Part shown: positions 2,524 through 24,300 of the stretch, one piece after another
How the letters are laid out: each line of letters starts with the position of its first letter
How positions within the stretch are numbered: position 1 is the first letter of the stretch
Origin: Alopecurus myosuroides
Lineage: Eukaryota > Streptophyta > Magnoliopsida > Poales > Poaceae
DNA: 64,000 nucleotides
Reading direction: 5' to 3'
Assembly: GCA_028641055.1 (NCBI GenBank)
Contig: CM054060.1
Coordinates: 241,580,833 to 241,644,832, forward strand
Notes under the pieces: model-generated
Databases searched by the model: none
The model's input: the letters and a program-made list of their open reading frames with translations, nothing else
Told to the model about the DNA's origin: nothing
Translations under genes and position numbers: made by a program

Positions 2524-2525
2524 GT

Positions 2526-2543: not shown

Positions 2544-2671
2544 AACCAGCGGCGCTGGCTGGAGTTTCTGTTCGGACGGGATCTTCATCGGCGGAGCGCG
2601 TAGTTTGTGGCCTTGTCCACAGATTTGGCTCCTTCGACTTCGTCACCGACAACGCCGGCTGTTTCGGCGGT

Positions 2672-5600
2672 ATGGCCATGCCCGAGGGCGGCTCGGTGAT
2701 CTCCTTCGGCTCGCATCTCGTCTACGTCGCCACCGTCGCCAACAGCGCCTACCCCGAGCTGGTGCAAGACGCGGAGGATCCTCCCGCGGTGGTTGCTGCT
2801 CGCGGAAGGCCTGCACGTAGCTCTGCATGCTGCGCTGAGGTGATGGTGACGGGCTTGGCGGCAAACACTGGCGCAGCTGCTACGGGCGCTGCGGCCGTCG
2901 TCGAGGAGGTTGACGACCCGCCTGCTGGAGGCAGGAACCACCGGCCCTACGAGAAGGAGAGCAACTTGCCGCCTTCCACGTCTACGGTCATCCCCGCGTC
3001 TGCCGCGCGAACCGGCATGCCCACGCCCACCGACGTCGAGCTCCTAGCCGCGCGGGAGCAGCTCGAGCGGCAACGCCAGGAGCTGCTCGCCGAGCAGGCG
3101 GAGTTAGAGAAGATCAGGTTGGAGCTGAGCCTGGACCAGCTCGAGTACAACAAGGCGCACGGCTTCACGCCAGTCGCCAGGAGGCCCAGCAGAGTGGGTG
3201 CTACGCGGCGCAACCTGGGTGCCGAGATGGCGACAGTTGCAGAGGAGCCCGCGCAGTCCGCTACCGCGAACACCTTCACAAGGCCGAGGTACAGCACGCC
3301 CGCCAAGACGCTGCGAGCAGCGCAAGCCGTGGCTGCCGAGTTGCCGCGCCTGGATGGCGAGGCGCGTCTCAGGCAGCAGGAGAGGCTCAATGAGTTGGTG
3401 CTGGAGGCTGCCAGGCAGAACGAGGAGTTCCGCAAGGCCAACCCGGGAGCTGGAGCTTCGCAGGTGGTTCACTCGCATGCGGCAAGATCTAACGATCAAG
3501 CCTCATCTCCGCATCCTAGTCGCGAGAAGAGCCGCAGCGGGCGTTCGGGTAGAGACAGGCAAATGCAGGTGTATGACCCGGCTGCTGCCGCGAAACAGAC
3601 TGCTGTGCCGCAGCAGCCCGGGCGGGAACACAACGCTGCAAGAGCAGGCTCTCAAGCCCATCAAGCTCAAAGCCGTGTCCGAGAAGCCGCGCGTCCGGGT
3701 ACTTCTCGGCAACCCGCAGCTCCGCCTACTCGGCAGAGGCAGCAGCCGCGCCCAGTGGCACCAGTCGCCAACCCGGTGGAGCAGCCCGCAGCAATGCAGG
3801 TGGATAGGTATGATGATGGCTACTCGGCTATGGAGATGGCTGGATATGACATCCATGACCGTGTTGGTGAGCGTGTGTTGGCGCCTGGAGATGCAAGGCA
3901 CCAGTTGGATCGTCTCAGCTTGTCGGCGCGGCTTGAGAGCACGGGTCCTCCTGGCCCCGAGTGCTTTGGCCCGCGCATCATGAACGAGCCATCCGTGAAG
4001 GGCTTCCAGCTCGCAAGAGGCACCAAGAGCTACAATGGTAGCACCAAGCCTGAAGATTGGCTCAACGACTACGTCACCGCAGTCCATATTGCGGGTGGCA
4101 ACAGGAGATGGGCGGTGCGCTACGTGCCGCAGATGCTAGAGGGTCCAGCTCGCACTTGGCTCAACAACCTGCCCAAGCACAACATAAACTGCTGGCTGGA
4201 CTTCTCGGACGCATTCGTCAGCAACTTCACCAGCACCTACAAGAGGCCGAATAGGCCACAGCAGTTGTCGGCTTGCCGGCAGCGAGAAGACGAGACGGAC
4301 CGCGAGTACCTTACTCGGTGGAGCACCTTGAGGAACACCTGTGAGGGTGTGAATGAGGCGCAGGCCATCACTTGGTTTGCGCAGGGTTGCCGACATGGCA
4401 GCATGCTTTGGCAGAGATTGCAGAGGGAGATGCCGAATACCCTGGCCGAGACCATCAAGATCGCGGATCAGTACGCACTCGGAGATCCTACTCAGCCACT
4501 GATGGATTCCTCTGAGACGAGAAGAAACTTCAACAGCAGCAAGCGCAACGAGTTCCGCAACAAGCGCCGAGTAGATACTCGGTATGATCCCGAAGAGGTG
4601 AATGCAGTGAATGTCGGAGGCGGTGGTGGCCAAAGGCAGAAACCTGCTGGAGCCTACGGGCAGAACCAGAACCAGGGCCAAGGCAACAAGAAACCGTTCC
4701 GCACTGCGCAGCCGGGTAGCGGGAACTCCGAGCAGCCGAAGAAGTTTGTCTTTGATGACATGAAGGATGGTCCGTGTAGCTTCCACACTCACCACCCCTC
4801 AAGGCCTGCCAACCACACTACTCGGCAATGCGAGTGGTGGGATGTGATCAAGAGTGATGGCTTGCCTCCTCCACCTCCTCTGCCAGCTGCCAATGCTACT
4901 GTTCAGCCTACTCGCGCTCCCGCAACTCGGCCGCCAGTATATCCGAGAAGAGAGAATGTCAACCAGGTGGCTTTAGGAGCCAACCGGAACTTCAACAACG
5001 AGAGATACCGCAACAACAACAACAACTACAACCGCAACAACAACAACAGAGGCAACAACAACTATCAGGGCAACAACAGCGGCAACAATGGCAACAATGG
5101 GGGCAATGGCTCCAACCAGTACCAAGAGCACCATGAGAGCTATATGATCTTCACTTCTGAGGCAGTCGACAAGCAGTCACAGCACAGGCGGGCCATGGAG
5201 GTCAATGCAGTGATTCCGGCTGTCCCTCACTACATGTATTGGTGCGACCAGGAGATCAGGTGGACTCGGGCAGATCACCCCAAGGTGATGCCCAATCCGG
5301 GTACCTATGCTTTGGTGCTGGATCCTACCTTCCTGGGCCCCGAGAAGAATGTGAGGTTCAGCAAAGTGCTGATCGACAACGGCAGCAGCATCAACATTGT
5401 GTACAAGGATACACTCGAGAAGCTTGGCCTGGCCGAGAACATGATGCTGCCTAGCAAGACCACCTTCCATGGCATTGTGCCTGGGATCTCGTGCAATCCG
5501 ATTGGCCGAGTGTGGATTGATGTGCTATTCGGTACTCGGGAGAACTGCCGCACAGAGCGCCTGCAGTTCGAGGTGGTGGACCATCAGAGCCCATATCATG

Positions 5601-5956
5601 CTCTACTCGGCAGGCCTGCTCTGAGCAAGTTCATGGCCTCTACCCATGTGGCTTATCTGAAGATGAAGATCCCCGGCCCCAATGGCATCATCACCATCTC
5701 GGGAGATTACAAGAAGTCCATGGAGTGTGCCTCTGCTAGCTCCCAGCTGGCGGAGTCAATGGTGATTGCTGCCGAGAAGAAGAAGATGTACGAGGTGGTG
5801 GCCATGGCTCAGTCCGCACAAGCTGGCGCACAAGGTGTGCCGAGTACTCAGCATGGTACTGCTTTCCAAGCTGCCAAGGAGACCAAGACGGTCCAGGTTG
5901 ACCCCGAGTTCCCGGAGCGTGTGGCTATCATTGGTGCCGGGTTGGCCGAGAAATAG
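2672..5956 (+). CDS. gag-pro: Gag-protease polyprotein of the Tat-lineage element
   Basis: Encodes the capsid protein and aspartic protease. The frame is open from inside the LTR (another ATG lies at 2495, in the LTR), so the start is uncertain. I chose ATG 2672 as the first one downstream of the primer site, giving 1094 residues. The N-terminal part is low-complexity, rich in Ala, Arg and Gln, with a Glu/Leu-rich helical stretch near 3040-3170. A retrotransposon gag core spans about 4000-4500 (residues 445-610). A Cys/His cluster starting CSFHTHH (residue 702) ends in QCEWW. It is followed by a proline stretch and an Asn-rich tract (4981-5115). The protease motif is DNGSS at residue 902 with a later LLGRPAL flap-side motif. 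The ORF stops at UAG 5954-5956, directly in frame with RT. Confidence 0.93.
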   Translation: MAMPEGGSVISFGSHLVYVATVANSAYPELVQDAEDPPAVVAARGRPARSSACCAEVMVTGLAANTGAAATGAAAVVEEVDDPPAGGRNHRPYEKESNLPPSTSTVIPASAARTGMPTPTDVELLAAREQLERQRQELLAEQAELEKIRLELSLDQLEYNKAHGFTPVARRPSRVGATRRNLGAEMATVAEEPAQSATANTFTRPRYSTPAKTLRAAQAVAAELPRLDGEARLRQQERLNELVLEAARQNEEFRKANPGAGASQVVHSHAARSNDQASSPHPSREKSRSGRSGRDRQMQVYDPAAAAKQTAVPQQPGREHNAARAGSQAHQAQSRVREAARPGTSRQPAAPPTRQRQQPRPVAPVANPVEQPAAMQVDRYDDGYSAMEMAGYDIHDRVGERVLAPGDARHQLDRLSLSARLESTGPPGPECFGPRIMNEPSVKGFQLARGTKSYNGSTKPEDWLNDYVTAVHIAGGNRRWAVRYVPQMLEGPARTWLNNLPKHNINCWLDFSDAFVSNFTSTYKRPNRPQQLSACRQREDETDREYLTRWSTLRNTCEGVNEAQAITWFAQGCRHGSMLWQRLQREMPNTLAETIKIADQYALGDPTQPLMDSSETRRNFNSSKRNEFRNKRRVDTRYDPEEVNAVNVGGGGGQRQKPAGAYGQNQNQGQGNKKPFRTAQPGSGNSEQPKKFVFDDMKDGPCSFHTHHPSRPANHTTRQCEWWDVIKSDGLPPPPPLPAANATVQPTRAPATRPPVYPRRENVNQVALGANRNFNNERYRNNNNNYNRNNNNRGNNNYQGNNSGNNGNNGGNGSNQYQEHHESYMIFTSEAVDKQSQHRRAMEVNAVIPAVPHYMYWCDQEIRWTRADHPKVMPNPGTYALVLDPTFLGPEKNVRFSKVLIDNGSSINIVYKDTLEKLGLAENMMLPSKTTFHGIVPGISCNPIGRVWIDVLFGTRENCRTERLQFEVVDHQSPYHALLGRPALSKFMASTHVAYLKMKIPGPNGIITISGDYKKSMECASASSQLAESMVIAAEKKKMYEVVAMAQSAQAGAQGVPSTQHGTAFQAAKETKTVQVDPEFPERVAIIGAGLAEK
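4981..5115 (+). repeat. AAC-rich low-complexity tract coding for an Asn-rich linker in Gag
   Basis: Imperfect AAC repeats encode mainly Asn with Arg, Tyr and Gly between the Cys/His cluster and the protease. It is probably a flexible linker and a site of length variation among copies. Confidence 0.9.
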
Positions 5957-8900
5957 GAAAGCGCGCTCATCCACTTCCTCCGTGAGAATCGGGACGTGTT
6001 CGCCTGGACCAATCAAGATCTACCAGGAGTCCCGAGGGAGTTGGTTGAGCACTCTTTGCATGTGCGTCCTGACGCCAAGCCCGTGAAGCAGGCTTTACGC
6101 CGCTTCGGGGATGAGAGAAGGAAGGCCATCGGTGATCAAATCACCAAGCTGCTGGTCAGTAACTTCATCATGGAAGTGCTGCACCCGGACTGGTTAGCCA
6201 ACCCGGTCATGGTCGAGAAGAAAAAGGAAGATCCCAAGGCTGCCACCGCATGGCGCATGTGCGTCGACTACACCGACTTGAACAAGGCATGCCCCAAGGA
6301 TCCTTTCCCGCTACCTCGCATCGATCAGGTGATCGATTCCACTGCCGGCTGTGAGCTGTTGTCTTTCATAGATGCCTACTCTGGTTTCCACCAGATTGCA
6401 CTCAACCCTGCTGATCAAATAAAGACTGCTTTCATTACCCCGTACGGGGCTTATTGCTATCGTGTCATGTGTTTTGGCCTGAGGAATGCGGGTGCAACCT
6501 ATCAGAGATGCATGGAGAAATGCTTGCACGACCAGCTCGGCAAGAATGTGCAGGTGTACGTAGATGACATTGTCATCAAAACGAATAAAACACATACTCT
6601 GCTTGCCGACCTGGAGGAAACCTTTGCTAACCTACGCAGGTACAAAATGAAACTGAATCCGAGTAAGTGCACCTTTGGTGTACCAGCTGGAAAGCTACTC
6701 GGTTTTCTGGTTTCTAGTCGGGGCATTGAAGCCAATCCGTCTAAGATAAAAGCTATTGAAAGCATGTCTTTGCCGAGATCATTGAAGGATGTGCAGAAGT
6801 TCACGGGGTGTTTGGCGTCTCTGAGCCGTTTCCTGGGCCGGATGGGCGAGAAGGCTCTGCCTTTGTACCAGCTGATGAAGAAAAGCGACAAGTTTGTCTG
6901 GACTCCGCAGGCGGATGTGGCATTCAATGAGCTAAAAGCAATGTTGGCTAGCGCTCCTGTCTTGGCTAGTCCGCTACCCAAGGAGCCTATGCTGCTATAC
7001 ATTGCCGCGACTAACCGAGTAGTCAGCGTGGTGATAGTGGTGGAGCGAGAAGAAGAAGGCAAGAGTGTGCAGCGCCCAGTCTATTATCTCAGTGAAGTGC
7101 TGTCCAGTTCCAAGCAAAACTATCCACATTACCAGAAGATGACATATGGTGTGTACCTGGGCGCCAGGAAGCTGAAACATTACTTCCAGGAGCATCCCAT
7201 CACTGTTGTGAGCTCAGCTCCCATCTCGGACATCATGGGTAACAAGGAGGCGAGTGGCAGAGTAGCCAAGTGGGCGATTGAGCTAGCCGCGTACGCTCCC
7301 GCGTATACGAGAAGAGAAGCAATCAAGTCTCAGGTACTGGCGGAATTTCTTGTGGACTGGGCCGAGATGCAGTATGAACCTCCCGCTCCAGTTTCCAACT
7401 ATTGGAAGATGCACTTTGATGGCTCAAAGGTGAAAGAAGGCCTTGGTGCTGGCGTGGTGCTTACATCACCCAAGCGGGATCAGCTCAAGTATGTGTTGCA
7501 GATCCATTTCAAGGCATCCAACAATGTAGCCGAGTACGAGGCAGTGGTGCATGGGTTGCGAGTAGCAAAGGAGGTTGGTGTGCAGCGCATTATATGCTAT
7601 GGCGACTCAGATCTAGTGGTGCAGCAAGTCTCAGGTACCTGGGACGCTTTGGATGCCAACATGGCATCGTATCGCTTCCTGGTGCAGTCAATGACTGGGT
7701 TTTTCGAAGGCTGTGAGTTTCAGCACATTCACCGAGCAGAGAACGAAGCCGCAGACGAGCTATCCAAGTTGGGATCTTCTCGGCAATCCATCCCGGCAGG
7801 GATTGCCTTGGAGCATTTGAGGAAGCCATCTATCAAGCCTTCCCCCAACTCGGAATCCATCTTTGTTCCTTCTCTGCCGAGTGAGGAATCTGACCCAATG
7901 GAGATTGACTGGGAGAGTGCTGCAGGGAACCCGGGGACTGCCGTCCTCTACTCGGGGACTGCCGTTCCCTACTCGGGGACTGCCACTCCTTGCTCGGGGA
8001 CTGCCACTCCCTACTCGGGGACTGCCACTCCCTACTCGGGGACTGCCACTCCTTACTCGGGGACTGCCACTCCCTACCCGGGGACTGCCATTCCTTACTC
8101 GGGGACTGCCACTCCTTACTCGGGGACTGCCGCCCTCAACCCAGAAGCTGTTGCATTCATTGAAGAAGTTCTCGCCAATCGGTCTGGGCTGCAGAGAAGC
8201 GCTCCTACTCCTCCTGTGCAACCAACAGAGCCTGTCCCAATGGAAATGGACGAACCAGTGTTTCCCGTGCGGGAGACGCTGAGTTGGGCAATGCCCATAT
8301 TATCCTTTCTAAGGGACGGTACTTTACCTGAAGATGAGGTGACCGCGAGGCAGATTCAGAGAAGGTCCAAGGGCTACACTATAGTCCGAGATGTGCTGCA
8401 CAAGAGAAGTGCCACCGGCGTGCTGCAACGCTGTGTGAGCCCAGAAGAAGGAGAAGAAATCCTGGTGGAGATACATCAAGGGGAATATGGGCATCACGCC
8501 TCTTCTCGGGCTTTGGTCAAGAAAGCTTTTCGGCATGGCTTCTACTGGCTCACTGCACTGCAGCAAGCTGAAGATATCGTGAGAAAGTGCGCCGGCTGCC
8601 AGATGTTCGCAAGTAAGATTCACATGCCAGCTTCCGAGTTGAAAACAATTCCTATCACATGGCCCTTTGCTGTCTGGTGCTTGGATATGGTTGGTCCTTT
8701 CAAGCCGGCTAAAGGCAACATGACTCATATCTTGGTCATGGTGGACAAGTTCACCAAGTGGATCGAGGTGAAGCCTATTCGGAAGTGCGATGGAGTCACA
8801 GCTGTGAAGTTTGTGAAGGATGTGATCATGAGATATGGCTACCCGCACAGTATCATCACCGACAACGGCACCAACTTTGCAGAGGGGGCAATGGTGCGAT

Positions 8901-9550
8901 TCTGCAGAGATAAGCATATCCGACTAGACGTTGCGTCAGTCGCGCACCCTGCCTCCAATGGGCAAGTTGAGAGAGCAAATGGGATGGTACTGGCAGGCAT
9001 CAAGCCGAGGCTGATTGAGCCATTGCTGAAAACACCTGGGTGTTGGCTAGAAGAGTTGCCAGCGGTGTTGTGGAGTCTAAGGACTACCCCTAACCGGTCA
9101 ACCGGCTACACGCCATTCTTCTTGGTATACGGGGCTGAGGCCGTGTTGCCAATAGACTTAGAGCATGACTCCCCCCGAGTAGCCCTCTACACTGAGGTGG
9201 AGGCGAGAGAAGCTCGAGAAGACGACGTTGACCTGCTTGAAGAAGCAAGAGAGCTGACTCTGTCACGTTCGGCTATCTACCAGCAAAACCTGCGGCGCTA
9301 TCATAGCCGAAAGGTGAACCCAAGGGTTTTCCGAGAAGGAGACATGGTCCTTAGGCTTGTGCAGCGCACAGCCGGGATGCACAAGTTGTCTCCTCTTTGG
9401 GAAGGGCCTTTCATTGTCAGCAAAGCGCTGCACAATGACGCGTACTACCTTGTAGATGTGCGCCCATCGCAGGCGAACAGGGCAGATAAAGCTGGAGAGG
9501 AAACCAAGCGTCCCTGGAATGTAGCTCTACTTCGTCGTTTTCATTCGTAA
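5957..9550 (+). CDS. pol: Pol: reverse transcriptase, two RNase H domains, integrase
   Basis: Open for 1197 codons in the same frame as gag-protease, directly after UAG 5954-5956, with no convincing ATG of its own near the start. RT has the YVDD box at 6557-6568 (residue 201). The first RNase H has lost the usual catalytic acids (AATN where an Asp is expected, YQKM where YEK is expected). A second, archaeal-type RNase H begins at MHFDGS (residue 485) and keeps its acidic residues (HFDGS, AEYEA, GDSDL, AADEL). Ten 7-residue repeats (7933-8142) separate it from integrase. Integrase has an H-H-C-C zinc finger starting near residue 840 and catalytic D910 (LDMVGP), D969 (TDNGTNF) and E1005 (GQVERAN), with 35 residues between the last two. 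The C-terminal domain follows. All essential sites are present. Confidence 0.95.
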   Translation, partial: ESALIHFLRENRDVFAWTNQDLPGVPRELVEHSLHVRPDAKPVKQALRRFGDERRKAIGDQITKLLVSNFIMEVLHPDWLANPVMVEKKKEDPKAATAWRMCVDYTDLNKACPKDPFPLPRIDQVIDSTAGCELLSFIDAYSGFHQIALNPADQIKTAFITPYGAYCYRVMCFGLRNAGATYQRCMEKCLHDQLGKNVQVYVDDIVIKTNKTHTLLADLEETFANLRRYKMKLNPSKCTFGVPAGKLLGFLVSSRGIEANPSKIKAIESMSLPRSLKDVQKFTGCLASLSRFLGRMGEKALPLYQLMKKSDKFVWTPQADVAFNELKAMLASAPVLASPLPKEPMLLYIAATNRVVSVVIVVEREEEGKSVQRPVYYLSEVLSSSKQNYPHYQKMTYGVYLGARKLKHYFQEHPITVVSSAPISDIMGNKEASGRVAKWAIELAAYAPAYTRREAIKSQVLAEFLVDWAEMQYEPPAPVSNYWKMHFDGSKVKEGLGAGVVLTSPKRDQLKYVLQIHFKASNNVAEYEAVVHGLRVAKEVGVQRIICYGDSDLVVQQVSGTWDALDANMASYRFLVQSMTGFFEGCEFQHIHRAENEAADELSKLGSSRQSIPAGIALEHLRKPSIKPSPNSESIFVPSLPSEESDPMEIDWESAAGNPGTAVLYSGTAVPYSGTATPCSGTATPYSGTATPYSGTATPYSGTATPYPGTAIPYSGTATPYSGTAALNPEAVAFIEEVLANRSGLQRSAPTPPVQPTEPVPMEMDEPVFPVRETLSWAMPILSFLRDGTLPEDEVTARQIQRRSKGYTIVRDVLHKRSATGVLQRCVSPEEGEEILVEIHQGEYGHHASSRALVKKAFRHGFYWLTALQQAEDIVRKCAGCQMFASKIHMPASELKTIPITWPFAVWCLDMVGPFKPAKGNMTHILVMVDKFTKWIEVKPIRKCDGVTAVKFVKDVIMRYGYPHSIITDNGTNFAEGAMVRFCRDKHIRLDVASVAHPASNGQVERANGMVLAGIKPRLIEPLLKTPGCWLEELPAVLWSLRTTPNRSTGYTPFFLVYGAEAVLPIDLEHDSPRVALYTEVEAREAREDDVDLLEEARELTLSRSAIYQQNLRRYHSRKVNPRVFREGDMVLRLVQRTAGMHKLSPLWEGPFIVSKALHNDAYYLVDVRPSQANRADKAGEETKRPWNVALLRRFHS
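7933..8142 (+). repeat. Ten 21-bp tandem repeats in pol
   Basis: GGGGACTGCC recurs every 21 bp from 7933 to 8122. The units encode a repeated 7-residue block (GTATPYS type) between the archaeal-type RNase H and integrase. Each unit core, CTCGGGGACTGC, is nearly the same as the 12 bases directly before the 3' LTR (16089-16100, TTCGGGGACTGC). Confidence 0.97.
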
Positions 9551-10227
9551 GCAAAGATGTGTATGTACCCTCCTATCCGAGTTGAAATTCTACTCTGCAA
9601 TCTGAAATTGTTCTCGGGGACTGCCCTCGTCCAAAATTGCTCTAAGTGTTTTTCTTACTTGGCTTGTTCCTTTGTCTATTCGGTTGCTCCACTTCAGAAC
9701 TCAAAAGTGCATTGAGTACTGTGTTTAAACCTATATGCCAACTCTTCGACTTTGCTGCTGTCCGAAACCCGGCTTCATGGCAAGCAAGAGAACAAGCAAA
9801 AGGTCAATGAGCACACGAAAATCACTAAGGAAGAAAGAGTGCAGGAACCGAGTAGATTGTCGGTTACTTTTTGTTCCCCGTTTTCGTCTTCTCGGCTAGG
9901 TGGTGGGCTGCGTTACCATGATTGTTTCTAGCGGCTAAGTATTTGCAGCCCTGCTACTTGATTGTTGTGACTCGAATACCAAACAAGCGACAAGTCGCAG
10001 GTAGAGCAGAGATGAAAAGACAGGGTGAATAAGAAAAGCTACTCGGGGACTCGCATGGAAACACAACTCGGCATTAAGCCAGTGTCGTTCAAATTGATTA
10101 ATGTCAACATAAACCGAGTGGGCATAAAAACTGAGTAGCAAGCAAGATAAAGATAGTCTGTTACATCTGCTCCCGGCATCCCGGGGATCTGATAAGTGTT
10201 CAAGTTTGAAAGAGAATGCAGGTTGTT
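9551..10227 (+). other. Gap between convergent pol and the antisense gene
   Basis: No coding potential seen. It contains TCTCGGGGACTGCC near 9613 and CTACTCGGGGACTCG near 10041, both resembling the polypurine tract. The 3' ends of the plus-strand pol and the minus-strand gene face each other here, so the antisense transcript presumably ends in this interval. I could not identify a clear polyadenylation signal. Confidence 0.7.
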
Positions 10228-13200
10228 TCAAGATGAGGAGGCGTTGTTCTCGGCGCTGGCCTTGGCTGATGTTTCCTCGGCGGCGGTCTTGGCAGCAGTT
10301 TCTTCAGTGGCGGTCGCGGTAGCTGTTCCTTCGGTGCCGGCTTGAGTGGCATCCGCCTCCGTCTGCACGGCGGCGGATTCCTCCATCTCGGCATCCTCCT
10401 GGGTGGCCGCCTGCTCGGAAGTGGCCGTGGCCACCGAGACGGGTCCTGGAGCCGAGGAGGAGCATGAAGCGTGGCCAGGAGGGGGCACCGTGTCGTCGAG
10501 AGCAGCACCTGAGGAGGTGCCGAAGTCGAGTGGCTCGGAGTCGATGTGCGCCCCTTCGTCTTCGTCGCTACTCGCGACGACGGCGGCCTTTCCCTTCCCG
10601 GCCTTGCCCTTGGGAGATTCGAAGAAGTCACCAAGTTCTTCCTCTTCGTCATCATCTTCTTCGTCCTCGTACTCGGTGTCGGGTTCGGGGACGCCATCGA
10701 TGTAGACCTCCGTCTCGGCGCACTCTGCGACCTCATACGCAATCTGCTTGCGCAAGGCCACGCTCTCGGCATCCGTCTCCCACTTGGAATTATTGCGCTT
10801 CCCGCGGATGCGCTGCATATCCAGGTTTTCATACCAAGATGCTATGCAGAGAAGCATCACGTCCGCACCAGCACGGGCTCCGGAGGCTCGCCACTTTTTC
10901 AACTCGGCCTTCACGTTCTCCAGCTTGAGGGCGAGCTCCCGCATGTTTCTTGGCTCGGGATCATGAGGCCAGAACAGCCGGTGGAGCTCAAAGCCCACAT
11001 GAATCAAGTCAGTTCCGACGCCAGACAGCATTTCGAAGTAATCTTTAAGCACCAGCAGGCTGTCCTCGATTTCAGCCCTGGTGTCAATTGGCTCACCCAG
11101 CGAAAGGCGAACTGCTCGGGCCTTGGCTACCGTAGGCGCAGAGGTAGAATCAAGACGAGGCCAGATATCTGAAATAGCAAGTAGCAAGATAAAAAACCGA
11201 GAAGAAAGAAGAAGCAGAGAAGGAACAAGACCGAGAAGAAAAGATGCAATGAAGAGAAAACTTGCCGATCAGTTGGCGGCGCAGCTGCTGCAGCTTGGTT
11301 TTCCAGGACTCCTCGTTGCCAATATGCCTGGATTGGATCAGGCGCAAGCTGTCCATCTGAGCAAAGAGATCAGCGTTGGTTTTCTTCAAAGTTTCGCACT
11401 CAGCCTCGAGGGCCCTCTCCTTGGCCTTGAAAGTGGTCTCGGCCTTGGCCTTCTCGGCGATTGCCTTGTCCCTCTCGGCGCCAATCTTGACGGCATCTTG
11501 GAGTGCTTTCTGAAGCTGGACCTGCAGCTTCTCCATCTCGGTGGTGTGGTCCTTCACCAGAGTAATGGCCTGGTCGGATAGCTGCTTCTCCACCTCCACT
11601 GGCTTGACGCAATCTTGGTGTGCCTCAGCAAATGACTTATGATCTTCTGCGAAAAGATAGATGAGGTTAGTAAATAAGCAGGGAAGAACCAAATTCAAGG
11701 TCACACCGAGTAAACAACAAACTCACCTTCAAGTTTCTTTATGGTGGCCTCGGCGTTCGCCACGAAAGTGCGGCATTTCTCATGCTCCTCGGCCAGGGCC
11801 TTTAGTTTCTCTGCAGAGAAGGAAGGGTTAGCGCATAAGAAAGCAAAAGCGGGCGTACACATAAAACGCAGAAACCGCGGAGCTAAAGGCGTACCTTGCA
11901 CTTCAGCCAGCTGTTGGGTGCTGGTGGTAGCATCTTTGCTCGCGGCCTTGGCCAGTGCTTTCTCCTTCTCCAGTATGGCGATACGCCTCCTGGCGATGGA
12001 GTGGTTCCAGAGAAGGATGCGGTATAAGTTGGTCCGCTTAAGAACGCTATCCTGAAGACCGAGAAGAAAATGAGTTAGGCAAAGCGGAGAAGATTCGGCC
12101 CGAGTAGGAGGCTACTCGGAGAGTATCCATCTACTCGACCCAAATCTCGGGGACTGGGGGTGATGGTAAGAAAGAAGAAAGGCGAGTAGAAGAGAAGAAA
12201 ATTCAACTCGGAAACGGCAAAAAAGACTTACTGCATAGCTCTGTTCGATATCTTCGGCGTTCTTGCGGTGCAAGAACATCTTGGCAGCGAGGGTTGCGGT
12301 ATCAGTGGAGACGGACATGGGCTGGTGTCCCAGGTCGATCTTGTTCCACTCCACGCGGTAGTGGTCGATGGAGCCAAGGGTCAAGCCGTGCCACTTCTCC
12401 TCTCCAAGAACCCTGCTGTCCCACTTGGCGCTGATGTGGCCAACAGTGTCCAGTACCTGCTCAAGACCCTTGGAGGTTATTGGCTTGTCTTGGGCTCCCC
12501 GAGAAGCAATATTGACGGGTTTGTTTTGAGCTGGATCGAAGGGAGGAGTATTCCTGGCTACAACTTTCCTTCCCTTCTGAATAGCTAAAGCTTTATCTTG
12601 GGGAGGGAAGCCGATGGTGTGTTGTTGGCTAACCTCAATCATATACTCCGGGTAGCAGGGCTGACCAGCAGCGCGAGCATCAGCCGAGAGCGCAGCAGGA
12701 ATAGGGCCGGACTCGCGGATCACGAGCGCTCCGCCTGCGGATGCGCCTTGGTCTCTGGCCCTTTTCTTCGTTTGCTCCTTCTCGATTCCCTGCTTCTCGA
12801 GATCCTCGGGTTTCTTCCCGTCAGTCTTGGCCTTTGCCTTCTCGGCGACTGCTTCCTCGGCAGCTTGCTTCTCGACCTTCTTCTGCTCAGCCCTGGCTTT
12901 CTTCTGCTCGGCCTTGGCTCTCTCAGCAGCTTCTTTCTCAGCTTTGACCTTCTCGGCGGCTTCCTCCTCGGCCTTGGCCTTCTCAGCAGCCACCTTATCG
13001 GCAGTCTCCTTCTCAGAAAGGCCTTTCTCGGAACAGTAATCCCTCAGAGCATCAAGGGCCTGTTGCCTGGCTACTCGCCCAGGAGGGCTGGATGTGTCCT
13101 TGCTCTGTGGAGACGAGGAGGAAGTTGGTGGCGTAGGGCCTTGCGCAGTTGGTGGCGTAGGGCCTTGCGCGGTTGGTGGCGCCCCAGACCCATCGCCCGG

Positions 13201-15411
13201 TGCAGCTCCTGGCTGAACACTACTCGGTGCGCCGCCTGGCAGTGGGTAGACATCTGCTATGGTAGCATCCGCGGCGGTGTCGTCTTTCACCAGCCGCTCG
13301 GCAGTGATGTTCTCTTGTGCGGCAGCCTCGGTGGTAGGCTGCTCCCGTTCTACTTCTGGCCGCTCAAGGGCGGCGGCGTCTTGCATTTCTTGTTCTTGGT
13401 TCTCCTCTGCGTTGCTAGCCGGAGGAGAAGGGGGTCTCTCTTCATGAATGGTGGTATCTTGTGCTGCTGGCTCTGGTTCTGCTCCTCGAGCATCGCTAGC
13501 CTGTGCGTTGGTGGCAGCAGCATTGGTGGCGTCGTTCTCATCGTCAACGAGGTCGATCAGGGGTACTGCTGTCTCCCTGTCTTGGCCGGACGCAAAGGCT
13601 GCGTTCGCATCCATGGCAGGACTGCAGAGAAGAAAGAAGTCAGGGATTGGAAGAAGATTTGGGAGAAAACAGTACTACGCGAGAAGAAGGGCAAACGAGA
13701 AGAGAACTCACGCAGTGGTGGATTTAAGCTGTCGTCGGGGTTTCTTTACAGTAACCTTCTTCTTCTTCTCGGCGGCCTCCTCCTTCTCGGCGGGCTTCCT
13801 CTTCTTGGCTGGAGGTGCCTCTGCTCCGCTGCCGGTCCGCTTGCGGGTTTCGGGAGGGACAGTAGACAGAGGTTGGACGACAAGGGGCGCATCGCCCTCG
13901 TTCTCGTCCTCATCCTCGTCGTCCTTCTCCGCAGCGGCCTCATCTGAGAAATTCAAGAGAGAAGAAGGAAGAATCAGAAACAGCAGTGCAAGGGGTTGGT
14001 ATTTCTCAGAAACAAACAAGATGAAAATAACAATACCGTGAGAGCCTTCATCCGACCAAGTGCGGAGAGCATCGCGCTTGTCAGGAACGGGACTGCTCTG
14101 TTCCGCGTCATCAGAAGGCAGCATGTCATCCTCCTCGCGATCGGCGAACCAGTTGTCTTCAAAAACTTCGCGACTCTCAATCAACTGTCGAGTAAGAGTC
14201 TGAAAGACAGAGAAGGATCATAAGTCAACCGAGTATCAGGATGGAACTCTACTCGGATAGGCGTGCAAACACAAAGCACACTAAGCCTATGCAGTTTCCT
14301 AAGTATTCTACTCGGATAGGCGTGCAGACACAAAGCACACTAAGCCTATACAGTTTTCTATGTGTTCTACCCGGATAGGCGTGCAAACACAAAGCATACT
14401 AAGCCTAAGCGCGAGTCGACTAAGTGCTCTACTCGGTGCACCAGGTGATTGCTAGTCGGGGCGGAAAGGGAAGTTATCTACTCGGGAAGCAAAGGCGAAA
14501 GCAGAGTAGGAACAGCGTACCCGGGCAATCGGTTGCGTGCGGCTGTACGGGACGAAACCATACCGCCACTTCTCGCTAAGGCTTGTCTTCAGAATGTTCT
14601 TGGCATGATAGGCAACGTCGACGTCGTCGATTTCGACGGTGGTGGTCCTGGTGCAGTCGCGGGGGCCTCCCATGTAACACATGAGATGGCAACGCTCCTG
14701 CAGAGGGAGCACTCGGCGCTTGATCCAGCACACCACCGGGTCGTCGTTCTTGAGGCCCAGTTTCTTCAGCTCGCCGAGTCTATCTTCTATCTCGATGGCG
14801 ATTTCGTCGATGGTGGGCTTCTCCTTCCAGTTTGACCCGAGTGGAGCACGATTCCTCCAAGCGGGCAGGTTGATTCGATCATCAACCGCACCTCCTTCCG
14901 TGGCGGGGACATTCTTGACGTAGAAGAACGACTGCTGCCACATTCGGCAGGAATCCAGCCCCTGGATGCGGGGATGATTCGTCCCGGTCCGCTGCACCAT
15001 CATGGCACAGCCCGTGTCGGTGGCGCGGCCGATGCCTGCGGCGTCTTTCTTCCCGACTGACTGCTGGCGAAGATTGAAATACCTGAGCCACGTATCAGTC
15101 GTGGGCCTGATGCCGAGGAAAGCCTCGCAGACCACCGCATGGTAGGCGAGGAAGACGACCGCGTTGGGCGGCAGATGATGCATCTGCAGCCCGAAGTGGT
15201 CGAGGAATTTGCGCAGGAAGTCGGAGGCGGGCAGTCCAAAGCCGCGCTCGAAGTGCGACATGAAGACCACCCGCTCGCCGTCCCGTGGAGCTGGCACAAC
15301 CTCGTCGTCGGGTGCCCGGCACTCCACGCCGGGGGGAACCCTTCTGCTGGTCACGAGCCAGGCGAGATTGGCCTTGGTGACGGAGGAACCCGCCCAGCTA
15401 GCCTTGGCCAT
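10228..15411 (-). CDS. Eight-exon antisense gene with Transposase_28 ('putative gypsy type transposon') domain
   Basis: Minus-strand exons are 15411-14521, 14199-14037, 13943-13712, 13621-12232, 12051-11895, 11810-11727, 11646-11266 and 11168-10228. They total 4239 nt (1412 codons plus stop) with no internal stop. Donors are GTACGC, GTATTG, GTGAGT, GTAAGT, GTACGC, GTGAGT and GCAAGT. Every acceptor is AG, most behind pyrimidine-rich tracts, and junction phases agree throughout. Exon 1 (residues 1-297) carries the conserved domain of Pfam PF04195, with motifs such as FGLPASDFLRKFLDHF and PNAVVFLAYHAV. Exons 2-3 give an acidic stretch followed by a Lys-rich, nuclear-localisation-like segment. 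Exon 4 is rich in Ala and Glu. Exons 5-7 look coiled-coil. Exon 8 ends in a Glu/Asp-rich and Ala/Thr-rich tail. Function is unknown. Tat elements are known to carry extra ORFs, some antisense. Confidence 0.88.
11169..11265 (-). other. Intron 7 of the antisense gene, GC-AG type
   Basis: The donor reads ATCG|GCAAGT and the acceptor TATTTCAG|ATATC on the minus strand. Splicing joins a phase-1 codon and keeps the frame. GCAAGT is the usual context of the minority GC-AG introns. No GT donor at this point gives the same frame. Confidence 0.75.
14249..14428. repeat. 59-bp tandem repeat, about three units
   Basis: Units start with CTACTCGGATAGG at 14249, CTACTCGGATAGG at 14308 and CTACCCGGATAGG at 14367, with a final CTACTCGG at 14429. 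They lie inside intron 1 of the antisense gene (14200-14520). Confidence 0.93.
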
Positions 15412-16088
15412 CGTTGCGAGTGGGAGGAGTGGATGATTTTTGAGTGGAGTTGCTCGGTGGAGTGAGTCCGCGGCGGCGCGGAAGCTTGCGCGGCGGCGGA
15501 GGGCTCGGTGGCGAAGAAGAACAAGAGGCAGAAGGGGAAAAGTGCAGGGAAGGGGAAAAGGAAGTTACCGCGGGGGTATTTATATCTCCCTCGCGAGATT
15601 ACCGTTACCACCGCGGAAGTGGGATCGACTGTGGCGTGTGGTGGGTCCTGTGGCCGGCTAGAAACGCACACAAGCGCGGGCTGCGCGCGTAACGGCCGCA
15701 TTTGATCCCACCATCAGATCGTGGCCAGTAATTGCGCGTGATGGGACATGACGGCCGGTGGGCCCACAGCGTGAAAACTGGACGCGTGGCGTCGTGTCCT
15801 GGGCAACCAAACGACGAGGTCGTGGATGCTTGACACGTGGGCAGTGCCTGCGTGAAGGGCTGGATGTTGCTCTACGCTGCAGAGGCTCAGTTTGCGAAAT
15901 TTCGCTAAGTCTTTTTACTCGGTTACAGAGTAGAAAGCAAGTGCTACTCGGAAGAGAGGAAACTCAAGGTACTTTCCAGATAGCTACTCGGAGGACCTAC
16001 TCGGCATCTTGAGGTTCGATGGCTGAGATGCAAAGGCTGGTTTTAAGCTGGCAGAGCCTAGTGAACAAGTTCGCAAGACTCAACCAGC
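15412..16088 (-). promoter_or_regulatory. 5' leader and promoter region of the antisense gene
   Basis: No ORF supported on either strand. It is GC-rich near the ATG (15412-15570), then holds the TATA box and more distal sequence with repeated CTACTCGG motifs (15955-16010). It abuts the polypurine tract, so the antisense promoter sits just inside the 3' LTR. Confidence 0.6.
15577..15584 (-). promoter_or_regulatory. TATA box of the antisense gene
   Basis: The minus strand reads GATATAAATACCCCC, a good plant TATA box, about 165 bp upstream of the ATG at 15411. The expected transcription start is near 15550, leaving a 5' leader of about 140 nt. Confidence 0.72.
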
Positions 16089-16100
16089 TTCGGGGACTGC
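16089..16100 (+). other. Polypurine tract before the gypsy 3' LTR
   Basis: TTCGGGGACTGC lies directly before TGTCGG at 16101, in the position of the plus-strand primer. It is unusually short and impure for a polypurine tract, but the sequence recurs through the element. Confidence 0.75.
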
Positions 16101-17010
16101 TGTCGGGGGGTTACCCCCGAGTAGGGTAAAGACAGGTGGTAAAGGCCGCTTACAGAAGAGAGGTTTGGTCGAGTAGCCGACTACAGGGTACTCGCTACCC
16201 GGTCGACTGCTACTCGGTCTCACCTCAAGATGACCAGAAGGAGATATCAATCAAGTTCTGCCCTGACGAGTAGAAGGTTTGGCCCGAGTACAATTGGCGG
16301 GAACCTTTGGCGGGAAACTACTCGGGCAGGAAGTCAAAGGAGCCGTTCTGACACAGGATCCCGCGTATCCTGGGTCCGTACTTGGCAGCATTCGAACTAC
16401 TGTTCACGTGGGGACGGCCTGCCTGACAGTGACAGCATGGAAGCAGGCCGTGGCAGGATAAGGGGGGCCTATTCTGTGACTAGGTACAGTGATACCAGTC
16501 TGTCCCCTAGTTTTGCCCAACGACTTTACAGAAGCAGACAAGATCAACGACCAAAGCTGTCAGCGGGTACTCGGAGAAAGGACAGTGTGCACACTATGTC
16601 GACACTTGTCTAAGATTTGGACGTATCCGGCTGGGCACCATGTATATAAGGTGCCCCGCCGCCTTCTGCGCGAGGCACGTACACACATGCTCTCACCTGC
16701 TCATAGTGAACCCTAGAAACCCTAAGTCCTTAACCTAGCTCTACTCGGAGAGGAGAGAAAGGCTACTCGGTAGCGTTACCATTTGTACTGTGGCTACTCG
16801 GAGAGACATCGTAATACATAGAGAAAGGCAGGAGTAGGGGTTTTACCTCCTCACGAGGGCCCTGAACCTGGGTACATCGTGTTGTTTGTGTTGTGTGGTT
16901 CTTACCTCACGCGGCTACTCGTCGCGTGATCCCTCCCCGGACACCTCCAGCGTCCATCGTCCCCACATCTTTAGCCATCCCATGGCATCTGCCGTGACAC
17001 CACCACGACA
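16101..17010 (+). repeat. 3' LTR of the Tat-lineage gypsy element
   Basis: 910 bp, offset from the 5' LTR by exactly 14487 with no indel and a single visible substitution (16472 T versus 1985 C). It is followed by the target duplication GACTT at 17011-17015. Confidence 0.96.
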
Positions 17011-17623
17011 GACTTGGACGAAATTCACATTGGAAGGTATGTCGTCATGACTCTATGGAACTTGGGAGTCGGCATGTTCTGCTAGGAGCCGCTACCGATT
17101 GATCCATTGGGAGTCAGACTCCAATCGTGTCCAAGTCGCCATGAGCCTGCAGGGTCGCACACTTAAGAGCGGAGGCAAGTGTATTGGTCGGGTTGTACCC
17201 GAACCAGAAATGGACTGAATTAGTGAGTTGGACTCACAGAGGGAATGGGCCACAAGAAATCTGAAACCCAATACCACTCGCTATATAAAGAGGGGCGCAG
17301 GTTGCCCAGGGGGCGCGTTATTCCACTCCCATGGGTTGGGAACCCTAGCCCCACTCAGTCCAGCCGTCGCATCGGACCTAGCAGTCCGCCGTCGGAGCTC
17401 CTTCTCGTACGTGTGGATACCGGCAGAGGTGCTGTACGTTCAGCACTTCGACGATCGCGAGATTGGATCGGCTGGATCGGATCGTGGGACTGCACTGCAT
17501 CGACGTGCTTCATCGATAATCCACACCTGCACGTCTAGTGGTAATCCTTGTGGCCTTTTAACTAGGCTAGATCTTATAAGCACCGCGTAGAAAAGTTTTT
17601 GTTTATCTCTACGCGTTCCAACA
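17011..17623 (+). repeat. Copia 5' LTR, right part
   Basis: Begins with the second copy of the gypsy target site GACTT. It aligns with about 23683-24295 of the 3' LTR and ends CCAACA at 17623. It carries the copia TATA box TATATAAA at 17282-17289 (equivalent at 23954-23961), now separated from upstream LTR sequence by 15.4 kb of gypsy DNA. Confidence 0.9.
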
Positions 17624-17624
17624 G

Positions 17625-18984: not shown

Positions 18985-19812
18985 ATGGCACCTAGCAACC
19001 TTCCTCAGTTGTCCACTTTTGCGTTGAGGTCAATCTTAGAGAAAGATAAGCTTAATGGAACTAATTTCACCAACTGGTATCGTAATCTGAGGATAGTCCT
19101 CAAGCACGACAAGAAAGAACATGTTCTAGAAACTCCACTTCTAGATGAGCCTGATGATGATGCGACTGTCGCTGTCATGAATGCCTATCGTAAGACTAGA
19201 GATGAGTCTATGGAAATTAGCTGTCTTATACTCTTATGCTTGCACACATGGAACCGGACTTCCAGCAACAGTTCGAGAATGTTGAGGCCTACGATATGAT
19301 CGAAAGCCTCAAAAGTATGTTCCAGGCTCAGGCAAAGACCGAGAGGTATCAAGTCTCTCAAGCTTTTCTAGGCTGTAAGCTCAAAGACGGCGATCCACTG
19401 AGTCCGCATGTAATCAAGATGACTGGTTACGTGCAGTCTCTGGATAGGCTGGGCTTCCCAATTAACGAAGAGTTCGCTACTAATATAATTCTGAATTCTC
19501 TTCCTAGAGCGTATGGTCCGTTCATTTTGAACTACCACATGCATGGTATTGATAAGAAGATCACTGAATTACATGAGATACTCAAAACGGCAGAGGCTGA
19601 TCTCAAGAAAGGCGCCAGTCAAGTGTTGATGGTGCAGAATAAGGCTAAGTTCAAGAAGAGTTCTTGGACCAAGAAGAAGAAGGTTAAGTCAGGAGGCAGC
19701 GCCGATGGCCCTGTCCAGAGCTCTTCCTCAAAGACTAAGCCATCTCCTACAGCCGAAGCCAATTGCTTCTATTGCAAGCAGGATGGCCACTAGAAGAGGA
19801 ACTGCACAAAGT
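18985..19812 (+). pseudogene. gag: Copia gag, frameshifted
   Basis: ATG 18985 begins a gag-like protein that shifts frame near 19230. The second frame holds the gag core (FENVEAYDMIESLK, then FQAQAKTERYQVSQAF) and a CCHC knuckle starting CFYCKQDGH. The knuckle is cut by TAG at 19791, in the position of its usual variable residue before KRNC. It would normally make the capsid that packages element RNA. The breaks rule out an intact product. Confidence 0.9.
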
Positions 19813-21252
19813 ATTTGGCTGATAGAGCCAAGAGTGGAGGTGTGACTTCCAACTCAGGTACGCTTGTGTGCGATGTTATAGACATTTATCTTGCTGATGC
19901 ACCTAACAGTTCTTGGGTATATGATACCGAATCAGTTATTCACATATGCAACTCGTTGCAGGGACTGGTAAGAACTAGGAGCGTGGCAAGAGGAAATGTT
20001 GATATTCGGGTCGGCAACAAGGCGAGAGTCGCTGCGTTGGAAGTCGGCACGATGCAACTTCATTTACCTTCATGATTTTTAATGGAGCTGAATAATTGTT
20101 ATTATGTTCCAGTGCTTAGTCGAAACATTATTTCCGCCTCATGTTTGATGAGACAAGGTTATGATTCGAATATTAAGAATAATGGTTGTTCTTTATATTT
20201 GAAAGATATGTTTTATGTCTTTGCACTCGTTCATGACGGGTTATTTATTTTGAATCTTGATAGTGAATCAGTCTATAATATAAATGTGAAAAGGTTGAAA
20301 CCAAATGATCTAAATATGACTTATTTTTGGCACTGTCGGCTTGGTCATATAAGTTGGAAGCGCATGAAGAAGCTCCATGATGATGGACTTCTAACTTCGT
20401 TCGACTTAGAGTCATTCGAGACATGCGAATCATGCCTACTAGGCAAAATGACCAAGACACCTTTTGCAAGGATTTGTGAAAGGGCGTCCGACTTGTTGGA
20501 AGTAATACATAGTGATGTATGTGGTCCAATGAGCACGACAGCCAGAGGTGTTTATAAGTACTTCATTACCTTCAATGATGATTTGAGTAGGTATGGATAT
20601 ATCTATTTAATGAAACACAAGTCGGAAGCGGTTAAGAAATTCAAGGAATTCTAGAGTGAGGTTACAAAATCAACTCGGAAAGAAAATAAAGTTTCTACGA
20701 TCGGACCGTGGGGGTGAGTACGTGAGCCAGTTTGATGACCATCTAAAGAGTTGTGGAATAGTTCCTCAACTCACTCCGCCGGGGTACACCACAGAGGAAC
20801 GGTGTATCGGAACGGAGAAATCGGACCTTGTTGGACATGGTACGATCAATGATGAGTCGTACAGATCTACCTTTATCATTTTGGGGTTATTGTCTAGAAA
20901 CTGCAGCGTTCACACTAAACAGAGTACCATCAAAGTCAGTAGAGAAGGCACCACATGAGATGTGGACTGACAAAAGGCCAAGTTTGTCTTTTCTTAAGAT
21001 TTGGGGTTGTGAAGCATTTGTCAAGCGACTTCAGTCGGATAAGCTCACGCCCAAGTCCGATAAGTGTATTTTCATGGGGTATCCGAGGGAAACCTTGGGG
21101 TACTACTTCTACAACCGAGAAGAGGGCAAAGTGTTTATCGCTCGGAATGGTGTCTTCCTTGAGAAAGAGTTTCTCAATCGGCGAGTCAGTGGGAGCACAG
21201 TGCAATTGAACAAATTCGAGACGAACCGTCTAGGGGCGAGTCGGCAAGGGCC
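19813..21252 (+). pseudogene. pol: Copia protease and integrase, broken
   Basis: The protease active site reads DTES, where the family has DTGS/DTGC, so the Gly after the catalytic DT pair is lost. The integrase zinc region is recognisable (HCRLGH, then CESCLLGKM), as are the core motifs HSDVCGP and SDRGGEY. There is a stop at the end of KKFKEF (20652) and frameshifts near 20700-20830. Later sequence (PHEMWTDKRPSLSFLKIWGC) is the conserved integrase-RT linker. Confidence 0.9.
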
Positions 21253-22922
21253 TTGGAGGCTGAGCCGGTCGTGGTACCTACACCGGCAACGACACCTGAA
21301 CCACGGAGATCTGCCAGATTACAAAATGCTCGTGATGTTTTACTGTTAGACAGTAATGAGCCAGCAACTTATTCGGAAGCGATGGTGGGATCTGATTCCG
21401 AGCCATGGCTTGGAGCCATGAAATCCGAGTTAAAGTCCATGGATGAAAACCAAGTTTGGAATTTGGTTGATCTGCCTGACGGTGGAAGAGCCGTCGAGTG
21501 CAAATGGGTCTTTAAGAAGAAAACTGATATGGATGGAAATATTTCCGTCTATAAAGCACGACTTGTCGCGAAGGGGTTCCGACAGGTTCAAGGAGTTTAC
21601 TATGACGAGACCCTCTCGCCCGTACCGATGCTTAAGTCAGTTCGGATCATGTTAGCCATAGTAGCCTATTTCTACTATGAGATATGGAAAATGGATGTCA
21701 AGACGACTTTCTTAATGGAAATTTAACTGACGACATGTATAAGATAGAGCTCGAAGGTTTTGTCGATCCGACTAACGCTGGCAAGGTAGGCAAACTTCAG
21801 AAATCCATTTATGGGTTGAAGCAAGCATCTCGGAGTTGGAACATTCGCTTTGATGAGTTAGTCAAATCGTTTGGCTTCATCAAGAGACATCATGATTCTT
21901 GTTTATACAAGAAGTTTAGTGGGAGCAAAGTAAATTTTCTAATCTTATATGTGGACGACATATTACTGATGGGAAATGAGGTGATGATGGTGCAAGAACC
22001 CAAAGAATCATTGGAAAGGAGTTTCTCAATGAAGGATTTGGGTGATGATACTTACATATTGGGAATCAGGATCTACACAGATAGATCAAGGCGGCTCATT
22101 GGATTGAGTCAGAGTACATATCTGGAAAAAGTTTTGAAGAAATTCAAAATGGAAGAGTCTAAGAAGGGGTTCTTACCGATGTCCCATGGTGTAAAACTTA
22201 GCAAGACTCAGTGTCCTTTGACGACTGATGAGCGAAGTCAGATGAGTGTGATGTCGTATGCTTCGGCAGTCGGATCCATCATGTATGCCATGATTTGTAC
22301 TAGGCCAGATGTTTCCTATGCTCTAAGTGTAACGAGCAGATACCAGGCTGACCCTGGAGAATCGCACTGGGCAACGGTTAAAACCATCCTTAAGTACTTG
22401 AGAAGGACTAAGGACATGTTCCTAGTTTATGGAGGTGATGAGGAATTTAGTGTAAAGGGTTACACGGATGCGAGTTATCTCACCGACTTAGATGATTCTC
22501 GTTCTCAATCTGGATACGTGTTTGTAATGAACGGAGGGGCTGTGAGCTGGAAGCGTTCCAAGCAAGATACCGTGTCGGTATCTACAACAGACGCTGAGTA
22601 TATTGCTGCCTCGGAGGCTGCAAAGGAAGCTGTTTGGATCAGGAACCTCCTGATAGATCTTGATGTAGTTCAGGGCGCGTCCAATCCATTGGATGTATAT
22701 TGTGACAACAATGGTGCTATCGCACAAGCCAAGGAACCTAGATAACACCAGAAGAACAAACATATACTCATGCGTTACCACCTCATTCGCCAGTTTGTCG
22801 AACAAGGTCATATCAAGTTATGCAAAGTACACACGGATGCAAACATTGCAGATCCGTTGACAAAGGCGCTACCACAGCCAAAGCATGAGGCGCACATGAG
22901 AGGTATGGGCATTCGATGCCTA
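21253..22922 (+). pseudogene. pol: Copia reverse transcriptase and RNase H, broken
   Basis: RT begins near 21350 (EPWLGAMKSELKSM, CKWVFKKK) and shifts frame at about 21700, inside the motif before the palm. The second frame, from 21684, has IYGLKQASR and the catalytic box YVDD, then RNase H (YTDASY, STTDAEYIA, YCDNNGAIA). A stop at 22743 interrupts the C-terminal end, whose remnant (ADPLTKALP type) continues to the final stop near 22930. Confidence 0.92.
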
Positions 22923-22966: not shown

Positions 22967-24295
22967 TGTTGGGAATATGCCCTAGAGGCAATCATGTATG
23001 ATGTAATTCCCAATGTATTCATAAAGTTATTAAGTCGTCATTGTTTTGAACATCTGATATATGTCATTGAATATGTGATTCGATTGTGGAACTATGTATT
23101 CATGTTGTTCATGCTAAATTGTCCTTGGTCATCAGGGTTGTGCTGGACACACACTCTAGACTAATGTGAGTGTTGGATGATGACTCAATTCCACTTGTCA
23201 TGGGCATGGTGATGCCATTCCAACGTTCACAGACTTGGCTAAAGAGTTTAGCAAGTCGTACTGACCCATATTGAGATGCAACGAGTAAGTCGTCATTTGC
23301 ATGTCTCAATCAATGTAATCCTTAGACCTGAGGTTGTCGCACAATCCGAGTTGTGGATCATGGACTTAGGTTCTGTCAAACGCTGTTCCGTGACAAGGCA
23401 GTTATAAAGGTAGAGTTCGAGTCGAATGAGAAGCAAGTTGCGTGATGTGGATAATCAAGATGAGATTTTGCCCCTCCGAATGGAGAGATATTATCTGGGC
23501 CCTCTCGAATGATATGATTCCGGAAGCATGACCATGCGCGACTCGGTTAATTGTTAACTGAGTGTGTTGACTAAGAGTTAGTCAGATGAATCATATATCA
23601 CAGACCGAGAAGAGAGTTGATCTATTTAAGGGATGACGATAATTCACCTATAGTTCGACAAGGTATATCGTGAGGTAAAGGAGACTCAGACGAAAGTCAC
23701 ATTGGAAGGTACGTCGTCATGACTCTATGGCACTTGGGAGTCGGCACGTTCTGCTAGGAGCCGCTACCGATTGATCGATTGGGAGTCAGACTCCAATCGT
23801 GTCCAAGTCGCCATTAGCCTGCAGGGTCGCACACTTAAGAGCGGGAGCAAGTGTATTGGTCGGGTTGGACCCGAACCGGAAATGGACTGAATTAGTGATT
23901 TGGACTCACAGAGGGAATGGGCCACAAGCGTTGTGAAGCCCACTACCACTCACTATATAAAGAGGGGCGCAGGTTGCCCAGCGAGCGCGTTATTCCACTC
24001 CCATGCATTGGGAACCCTAGCCCCACTCAGTCCAGCTGTCGCACCGGACCTAGCATTCCACCGCCGGAGCTCCTCCTCGTACGTGTGGATACCGGCATAG
24101 GTGCTATACGTTCAGCACTTCGACGATCGCGGGATTGGATCGGCTGGATCGGATCGTGGGACTGCACTCCATCGACGTGCTTCATCGATAATCCGCACCT
24201 GCGCCTCTAGTGGTAATACTTGTGGTCTTCTACCTCGGCTAGATCTTGGAGGCACCGGGTATAAAAGTTTTTGTTTATATTTACGTGTTCCAACA
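22967..24295 (+). repeat. Copia 3' LTR
   Basis: 1329 bp, TGTTGG to CCAACA, followed by TSD GCAAG (24296-24300). It is uninterrupted and serves as the reference for rejoining the split 5' LTR. Confidence 0.94.
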
Positions 24296-24300
24296 GCAAG

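Follow-up and report, generated by a model that had tools for sequence, protein, structure and literature searches.

Is the run of eight exons that lies antisense inside a plant retrotransposon a real gene, and how could its seven introns outlast replication through RNA? The question is raised by positions 10228–15411 of a 64,000-nt stretch of Alopecurus myosuroides DNA (GenBank assembly GCA_028641055.1, contig CM054060.1), hereafter the window. The exons sit between pol and the 3′ long terminal repeat (LTR) of a young element that we assign to the Tat/Retand type of Ty3/gypsy retrotransposons. With a probability of roughly 0.72, we read them as a real eight-exon antisense gene encoding a TRP28 (PF04195) protein, the predicted product being about 155 kDa in size.

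When rejoined, the minus-strand exons from 15411 to 10228 give 4239 nt, that is, 1412 codons in phase plus a TGA stop and no internal stop, as the sequence-only reading had claimed. Exon 1 (14521–15411) starts with the ATG and encodes the 297-residue TRP28 domain; it is followed by exon 2 (14037–14199) and exon 3 (13712–13943), the latter encoding an acidic and then a basic stretch with KKRK/KKKK motifs that resemble nuclear localization signals (NLS-like). Exon 4 (12232–13621) encodes a linker rich in Ala, Glu, Pro and Lys. Exons 5 (11895–12051) and 6 (11727–11810) are short, exon 7 (11266–11646) is rich in Ala, Lys, Glu and Leu and coiled-coil-like by composition alone, and exon 8 (10228–11168) ends in an Ala/Glu/Ser/Thr-rich tail ahead of the TGA. 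The intervening introns lie at 14200–14520 (intron 1), 13944–14036 (intron 2, 93 nt), 13622–13711 (intron 3), 12052–12231 (intron 4), 11811–11894 (intron 5, 84 nt), 11647–11726 (intron 6) and 11169–11265 (intron 7). Introns 1 to 6 are GT-AG. Intron 7 is GC-AG in the window, with the donor ATCG/GCAAGT, and in 3 of 18 related copies, and GT-AG in the other 15; plant spliceosomes use both GC and GT donors. By a rough, hand-typed consensus score, the acceptors reach at least 6 in six of the seven introns. The earlier claim of plausible splice sites at all seven introns needs correcting in two respects, namely the GC donor of intron 7 and the weakness, by this rough score, of most donors. The TATA box that had been placed 165 bp upstream of the ATG is where it was said to be: the motif TATAAATA occupies 15577–15584 on the minus strand (TATAAAT starts at 15584), 165 nt separate its end from the ATG, and it is invariant in the 18 copies, as is the whole 18-nt stretch around it. 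As a side observation, intron 1 holds a 59-nt tandem repeat at 14248–14407; intron 1 is shorter by 59 nt in the copies L027 and L028 and by 62 nt in L026.

The copies came from a search of the own genome (3.57 Gb) with part of exon 1. The best 40 of 4945 first-look candidates, a figure that is not a copy count, are 99–100% identical to the query and include the window; 20 of the other 39 were hand-picked along the list, and 18 were used after L014 and L019 had been dropped for partial alignment. Drawn from the best exon 1 matches, this sample is biased to young copies. All 18 retain both the ATG and the TGA, and 16 are free of in-frame stops and frameshifts; L010 has one stop, and L026 one stop and a 1-nt insertion. 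Splice dinucleotides are kept throughout except for the GC/GT switch at intron 7. That switch is the single distinct variant at 28 positions, against 4.9 expected from the intron rate, and the wider splice positions hold 4 variants at 63 positions against 11.0 expected, with the proviso that distinct variants among related copies are not independent events. Divergence from the window is 0.5–4.5% in exons and 1.2–6.7% in introns, the introns being more divergent in 14 copies. Indel lengths are multiples of three in 14 of 15 exon cases and in 1 of 26 intron cases (events not all independent); seven of the eight exons lack indels, all 15 falling in the repeat-rich exon 4.

Codon-level constraint is visible in the same alignment. 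Variants found in at least two copies (shared variants) comprise 164 synonymous and 126 nonsynonymous changes and no stops (pN/pS 0.23), and singletons comprise 148 synonymous and 167 nonsynonymous changes and three stops (pN/pS 0.35). Corrected for trinucleotide context, the shared variants have an omega of 0.37 (z −9.9) in the antisense gene frame, 1.72–1.91 in two other antisense and two sense frames, 0.50 in the sense frame whose wobble positions coincide with those of the antisense gene, and 0.73–1.13 in the introns. By exon, it ranged from 0.00 to 0.49 in seven exons and was 1.72 in exon 3, where there are 10 variants only. Singleton omega was 0.56 overall and 0.76–1.67 in introns. Variant density per site is lowest in exons 1 to 3 (0.06–0.09) and amounts to 0.12–0.26 in introns. 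The copies thus support an intact antisense gene on which purifying selection has acted. An exon-by-exon comparison of nonsynonymous and synonymous change, which the sequence-only reading had proposed, shows a deficit among shared variants in seven exons, exon 3 being without one; random stops beside a conserved gag-pol, the pattern that it had named as contrary, are not what the 18 copies show, the comparison having covered part of pol rather than gag.

The arrangement can be followed in more distant loci, of which 20 were fetched from the 89 matches of a Lolium protein search. In 19 of the 20, exon 1 is followed by an interruption and then by an exon 2 homologue; two of these 19 (L048 and L052) were the source of the query peptides, and near-duplicates occur among the loci. 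Exon 1 runs into GTAAGT in 17 of the 19, and AG comes immediately before exon 2 in 15; L066 is one base off, and three read CAA. L067, which is locus L060 fetched further downstream, is about 42% identical in exon 1 and carries parts matching exons 1, 2, the 3′ end of exon 4, 7 and 8, colinear and with changing frames. Its last part, corresponding to the C-terminal part of exon 8, could be aligned across 327 residues with 28.6% identity (E 1.7e-34). On visual inspection, an exon 5-like stretch lies behind an acceptor, and GTAAGT or GTAAGC ends the exon 4, exon 6-like and exon 7 parts. The reverse strand of L067 also shows, at about 3076–3160 and 3234–3300, what seems to be a duplicated small exon, two KHQDC stretches each with an acceptor. 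Of the eight Lolium-named gene models whose junction was viewed (three were left unviewed), seven join exon 1 to an exon 2 homologue and P0028 does not; these models are gene predictions, not RNA. The database protein P0014 runs through its intron 1 in frame.

Several results weigh against the reading of the eight exons as one spliced and constrained gene. Among the seven donors, that of intron 6 alone scores at least 4, the other six being below 4 or GC, and donor-like sites at score 4 are equally numerous on both strands of the stretch (2 and 2). Introns are less divergent than exons in 4 of the 18 copies, and variant density in exons 4 to 6 (0.19–0.25 per site) is about that of introns. Constraint is also much looser than in the pol part compared (omega 0.37 vs 0.07; shared variants at 5957–8000, in all 18 copies, number 93 synonymous and 11 nonsynonymous). 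Exon 3 shows no deficit of shared nonsynonymous variants (7 seen vs 5.8 expected), a count too small to interpret, and singleton omega is near neutral in exons 4, 5 and 6 (0.78–0.95), as expected if singletons arose in part after insertion. The in-frame lengths of the exon 4 indels may partly be those of repeat units. The exon 2 part of L067 contains a stop, as expected of an old copy, and the E-values for L067 were computed with composition correction off. Searches with C-terminal parts returned no protein relative among the 7985 and 7993 candidates scored, lists that had been filled up, probably by low-complexity matches, and fold and sequence searches gave TRP28 no PDB, viral or plant-mobile-domain match. 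No intronless copy for junctions 4 to 6 was found among the 40 of 3087 candidates scored. A separate observation concerns the singletons of exon 3 (13712–13943), which, unlike its shared variants, include 2 nonsynonymous changes against 6.0 expected.

What might the protein do? PF04195 (Transposase_28 / TRP28), which had been assigned to exon 1 from the letters alone, was recovered there by profile search at residues 48–115 (E 4.5e-19; 68.9 bits against a Pfam cutoff of 26.2), and all 42 members of the protein set A1 match it. Exon 1 is confidently modelled (296 residues, mean predicted local distance difference test score (pLDDT) 92.4, predicted template modelling score (pTM) 0.92), and the modelled domain spans all of exon 1, far beyond the 69-residue Pfam profile. 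The plant mobile domain PF10536 is absent from the 8 families matched by the 42 members at E up to 10, with filters that drop most matches above about 0.1. The predicted layout thus begins with TRP28 and continues with an acidic/basic linker, low-complexity stretches that are acidic and alanine-rich, a coiled-coil-like stretch and a conserved C-terminal part, the NLS-like KKRK motifs lying outside exon 1. In the Retand survey PMC11963269, the function of TRP28 is called unknown and a capacity for DNA binding is predicted for it. Since relatives also keep the gene intact, our data suggest that the element makes use of the protein. A nuclear accessory role appears most likely because TRP28 is predicted to bind DNA and because Grande gene23 is reported to be transcribed in antisense and to yield a nuclear protein; a role tied to the virus-like particle is its main rival. 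The suggestion of the sequence-only reading that the protein serves the element's mobility or the control of host silencing is conjectural. As a specific function, we put forward, tentatively and at a little under even odds, a nuclear accessory protein that would act on the element's own chromatin or transcription, like some retroviral antisense accessory proteins.

The rival that survives best, improbable as we judge it, is that the product serves the particle as a structural or replication protein, or acts in the pre-integration complex, instead of regulating transcription or chromatin. A long low-complexity protein with coiled-coil-like composition would suit such a role, the constraint across copies counts for it as well, and PMC7264820 considers, as a role, the import of that complex into the nucleus. 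The NLS-like motifs fit a particle protein and a nuclear regulator equally, while an antisense promoter of its own would probably uncouple the product from the amounts of Gag-Pol.

Less probable again is that the antisense transcript itself is what matters, pairing with the genomic RNA and tuning silencing or reverse transcription, with the reading frame secondary. Such a mode of action is known or proposed for antisense RNAs from other elements (PMC7264820, PMC12786077), and the overlap of the gene with the sense genomic RNA would be about 5.2 kb. Codon-level constraint and kept splice dinucleotides are unexpected under a role of the RNA only.

There is a small chance that the region instead holds separate antisense open reading frames (ORFs), as recorded in ORF surveys, rather than one spliced gene; exon 4 could be read alone from an in-frame ATG near its start, and the weak donors favour this arrangement too. 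Against it, constraint tracks the exons and the introns look neutral: in the 18 copies, coding constraint is lacking in all seven introns when the exon frame is carried through them, the stop-free introns 2 and 5 included. Translation carried on into introns 1, 3, 4 and 6 runs into stops in the window and in all 18 copies; introns 2, 5 and 7 are stop-free in all 18, and the 97-nt length of intron 7 shifts the frame. The kept splice dinucleotides likewise speak against separate ORFs, as do the recurrence of intron 1 with its GTAAGT donor in diverged loci and the further donors in L067. Introns 2 and 5 are, in addition, multiples of three and free of both stops and indels in all 18 copies, so that their retention would preserve the frame. 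Recent capture of a host gene by this single copy, which an intron-bearing gene inside an element resembles at first look, is contradicted by the same gene in all 18 analysed copies and, diverged, by its first two exons in 19 of 20 other loci, and is made very improbable also by PF04195 in 81 of 82 exon 1 protein relatives (the named ones are Lolium) and in nearly all Retand clusters as reported in PMC11963269.

If the eight exons are one gene, its transcription would start from the TATA motif next to the 3′ LTR, and splicing and translation would follow. Introns on the sense strand would be lost in replication, and those of the antisense gene should go unrecognised; as the genomic RNA is of the opposite, sense strand, they would not be removed before reverse transcription and would persist from copy to copy. 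The copies fit this picture. All seven introns are present in the 18 copies, and among 40 places, window included, introns 4, 5 and 6 are present in every measurable case (39 of 39, 31 of 31 and 31 of 31). The longest match to a joined-exon query is 162 nt and extends 11 nt beyond one junction, no match in the 40 scored places covering two exons. Such persistence fits the prediction and does not prove antisense shelter, because a region that is never spliced would look alike; the splice-site and selection evidence argues against a never-spliced region. The proposal of the sequence-only reading that the reverse orientation preserves the introns accordingly agrees with their persistence, splicing itself being deduced from sequence features. 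A broader scenario, which we consider doubtful, is that the Retand lineage carries one ancient multi-intron antisense gene whose introns cross the RNA genome unspliced, that an ancestor took up an intron-bearing gene in reverse through read-through RNA or DNA and not through spliced mRNA, and that the nuclear product of about 155 kDa has its own fold and either controls the element or works against host silencing.

Much of the setting is on record. According to Vicient (2025, PMC11963269), Retand elements typically carry antisense TRP28 ORFs in the interval from pol to the 3′ LTR, antisense ORFs after pol are general in recently active Retand, and TRP28 is present in 97% of clusters; the ORFs described there resemble ours in place, orientation and N-terminal domain. 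In PMC6317226, 23% of Retand elements are credited with PF04195 and 57% of Ogre elements with the plant mobile domain. The distance from pol to the 3′ LTR is 6550 bp here against a stated Retand maximum of 6,566 bp, and the internal region of 13,577 bp exceeds the largest Retand value of 12,869 (PMC11963269). In our element, the ORFs are united in one eight-exon gene whose splice dinucleotides are conserved among copies, whereas the word 'intron' is absent from the main text of PMC11963269. Maize Grande gene23 is likewise described as an antisense accessory gene after pol with its own upstream promoter and a nuclear protein (PMC7264820); the likeness is one of description, the kept TATA motif and the NLS-like motifs of the present gene being known from sequence alone. 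Ogre, also of the Tat clade, shares extra ORFs, an intron and the position of the second RNase H, but its intron lies between the gag-protease and reverse transcriptase (RT) frames and is removed from part of the transcripts, as opposed to seven introns in an antisense gene here, and its extra ORF is a plant mobile domain (PMC6317226), to which our gene has no PF10536 match. Retroviruses of the human T-cell leukaemia virus (HTLV) type also express an antisense accessory protein from the 3′ part of the provirus (PMC11963269), a likeness in outline for which we claim no homology.

Plant LTR retrotransposons are generally without introns, with Ogre and EVADE named as exceptions in a late-2025 review (PMC12786077), and a review of antisense ORFs has called for a search for spliced antisense transcripts (PMC7264820). 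We found no multi-intron antisense gene in these elements in the titles and abstract openings of the literature searched, the primary Grande (2013), extra-ORF (2011) and RIRE2 papers being outside that search. Within this literature, the new part is the architecture of one gene with seven introns, together with the evidence for selection; the setting is less new than the sequence-only reading implied, antisense TRP28 ORFs in Retand and antisense transcription of Grande gene23 being already known. A kept seven-intron gene in a numerous family would alter the annotation of coding capacity, as surveys that halt at introns miss most of the protein. It would also make TRP28 function more testable, since the whole protein could be expressed and not the first ORF alone. 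The antisense placement would have a possible reason, only that orientation letting introns survive RNA replication, and the introns would be a natural counterpart of intron-based laboratory reporters.

The host element spans 1614–17010 and is a complete, young LTR retrotransposon, as judged from its matching LTRs, TG...CA ends and target-site duplication. The 5′ LTR (1614–2523) and 3′ LTR (16101–17010) share a length of 910 bp, with one mismatch in 910 sites, and GACTT is duplicated on both sides (1609–1613 and 17011–17015). At a rate of 1.3e-8 per site and year, the single mismatch corresponds to an age of about 40,000 years. On the plus strand, candidate stretches for the primer binding site (2524–2545) and the polypurine tract (16076–16100) are placed by position behind the 5′ LTR and ahead of the 3′ LTR. 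The gag frame, taken from stop to stop (2351–5956), overlaps the LTR in its first part and contains Retrotrans_gag at residues 591–681. The pol frame (5957–9550, also stop to stop) encodes RT and, in order, RT_RNaseH (residues 341–446), a second RNase H (RVT_3, 487–604) and the integrase domain rve (903–998). Ogre and Retand are marked by an additional, archaeal-type RNase H in this position (PMC6317226). By itself the RVT_3 position does not separate the two; an antisense TRP28 ORF downstream of pol and ahead of the 3′ LTR is a Retand feature (PMC11963269) and is present here, and the putative Tat/Retand-type assignment rests on both characters. Within pol, short tandem repeats at 7929–8131, lying between the second RNase H and the integrase, encode GTATPYS-type repeats.

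The element is itself inserted in the LTR of another element, the flanking segments 924–1612 and 17010–17624 matching 22967–24296; the surrounding element looks Ty1/copia-like by eye, from the frames at 19221–22745. The right part of the window holds long inverted repeats of 87–88% identity, pairing 36480–39497 with 56255–59268 and 49351–50949 with 61804–63403.

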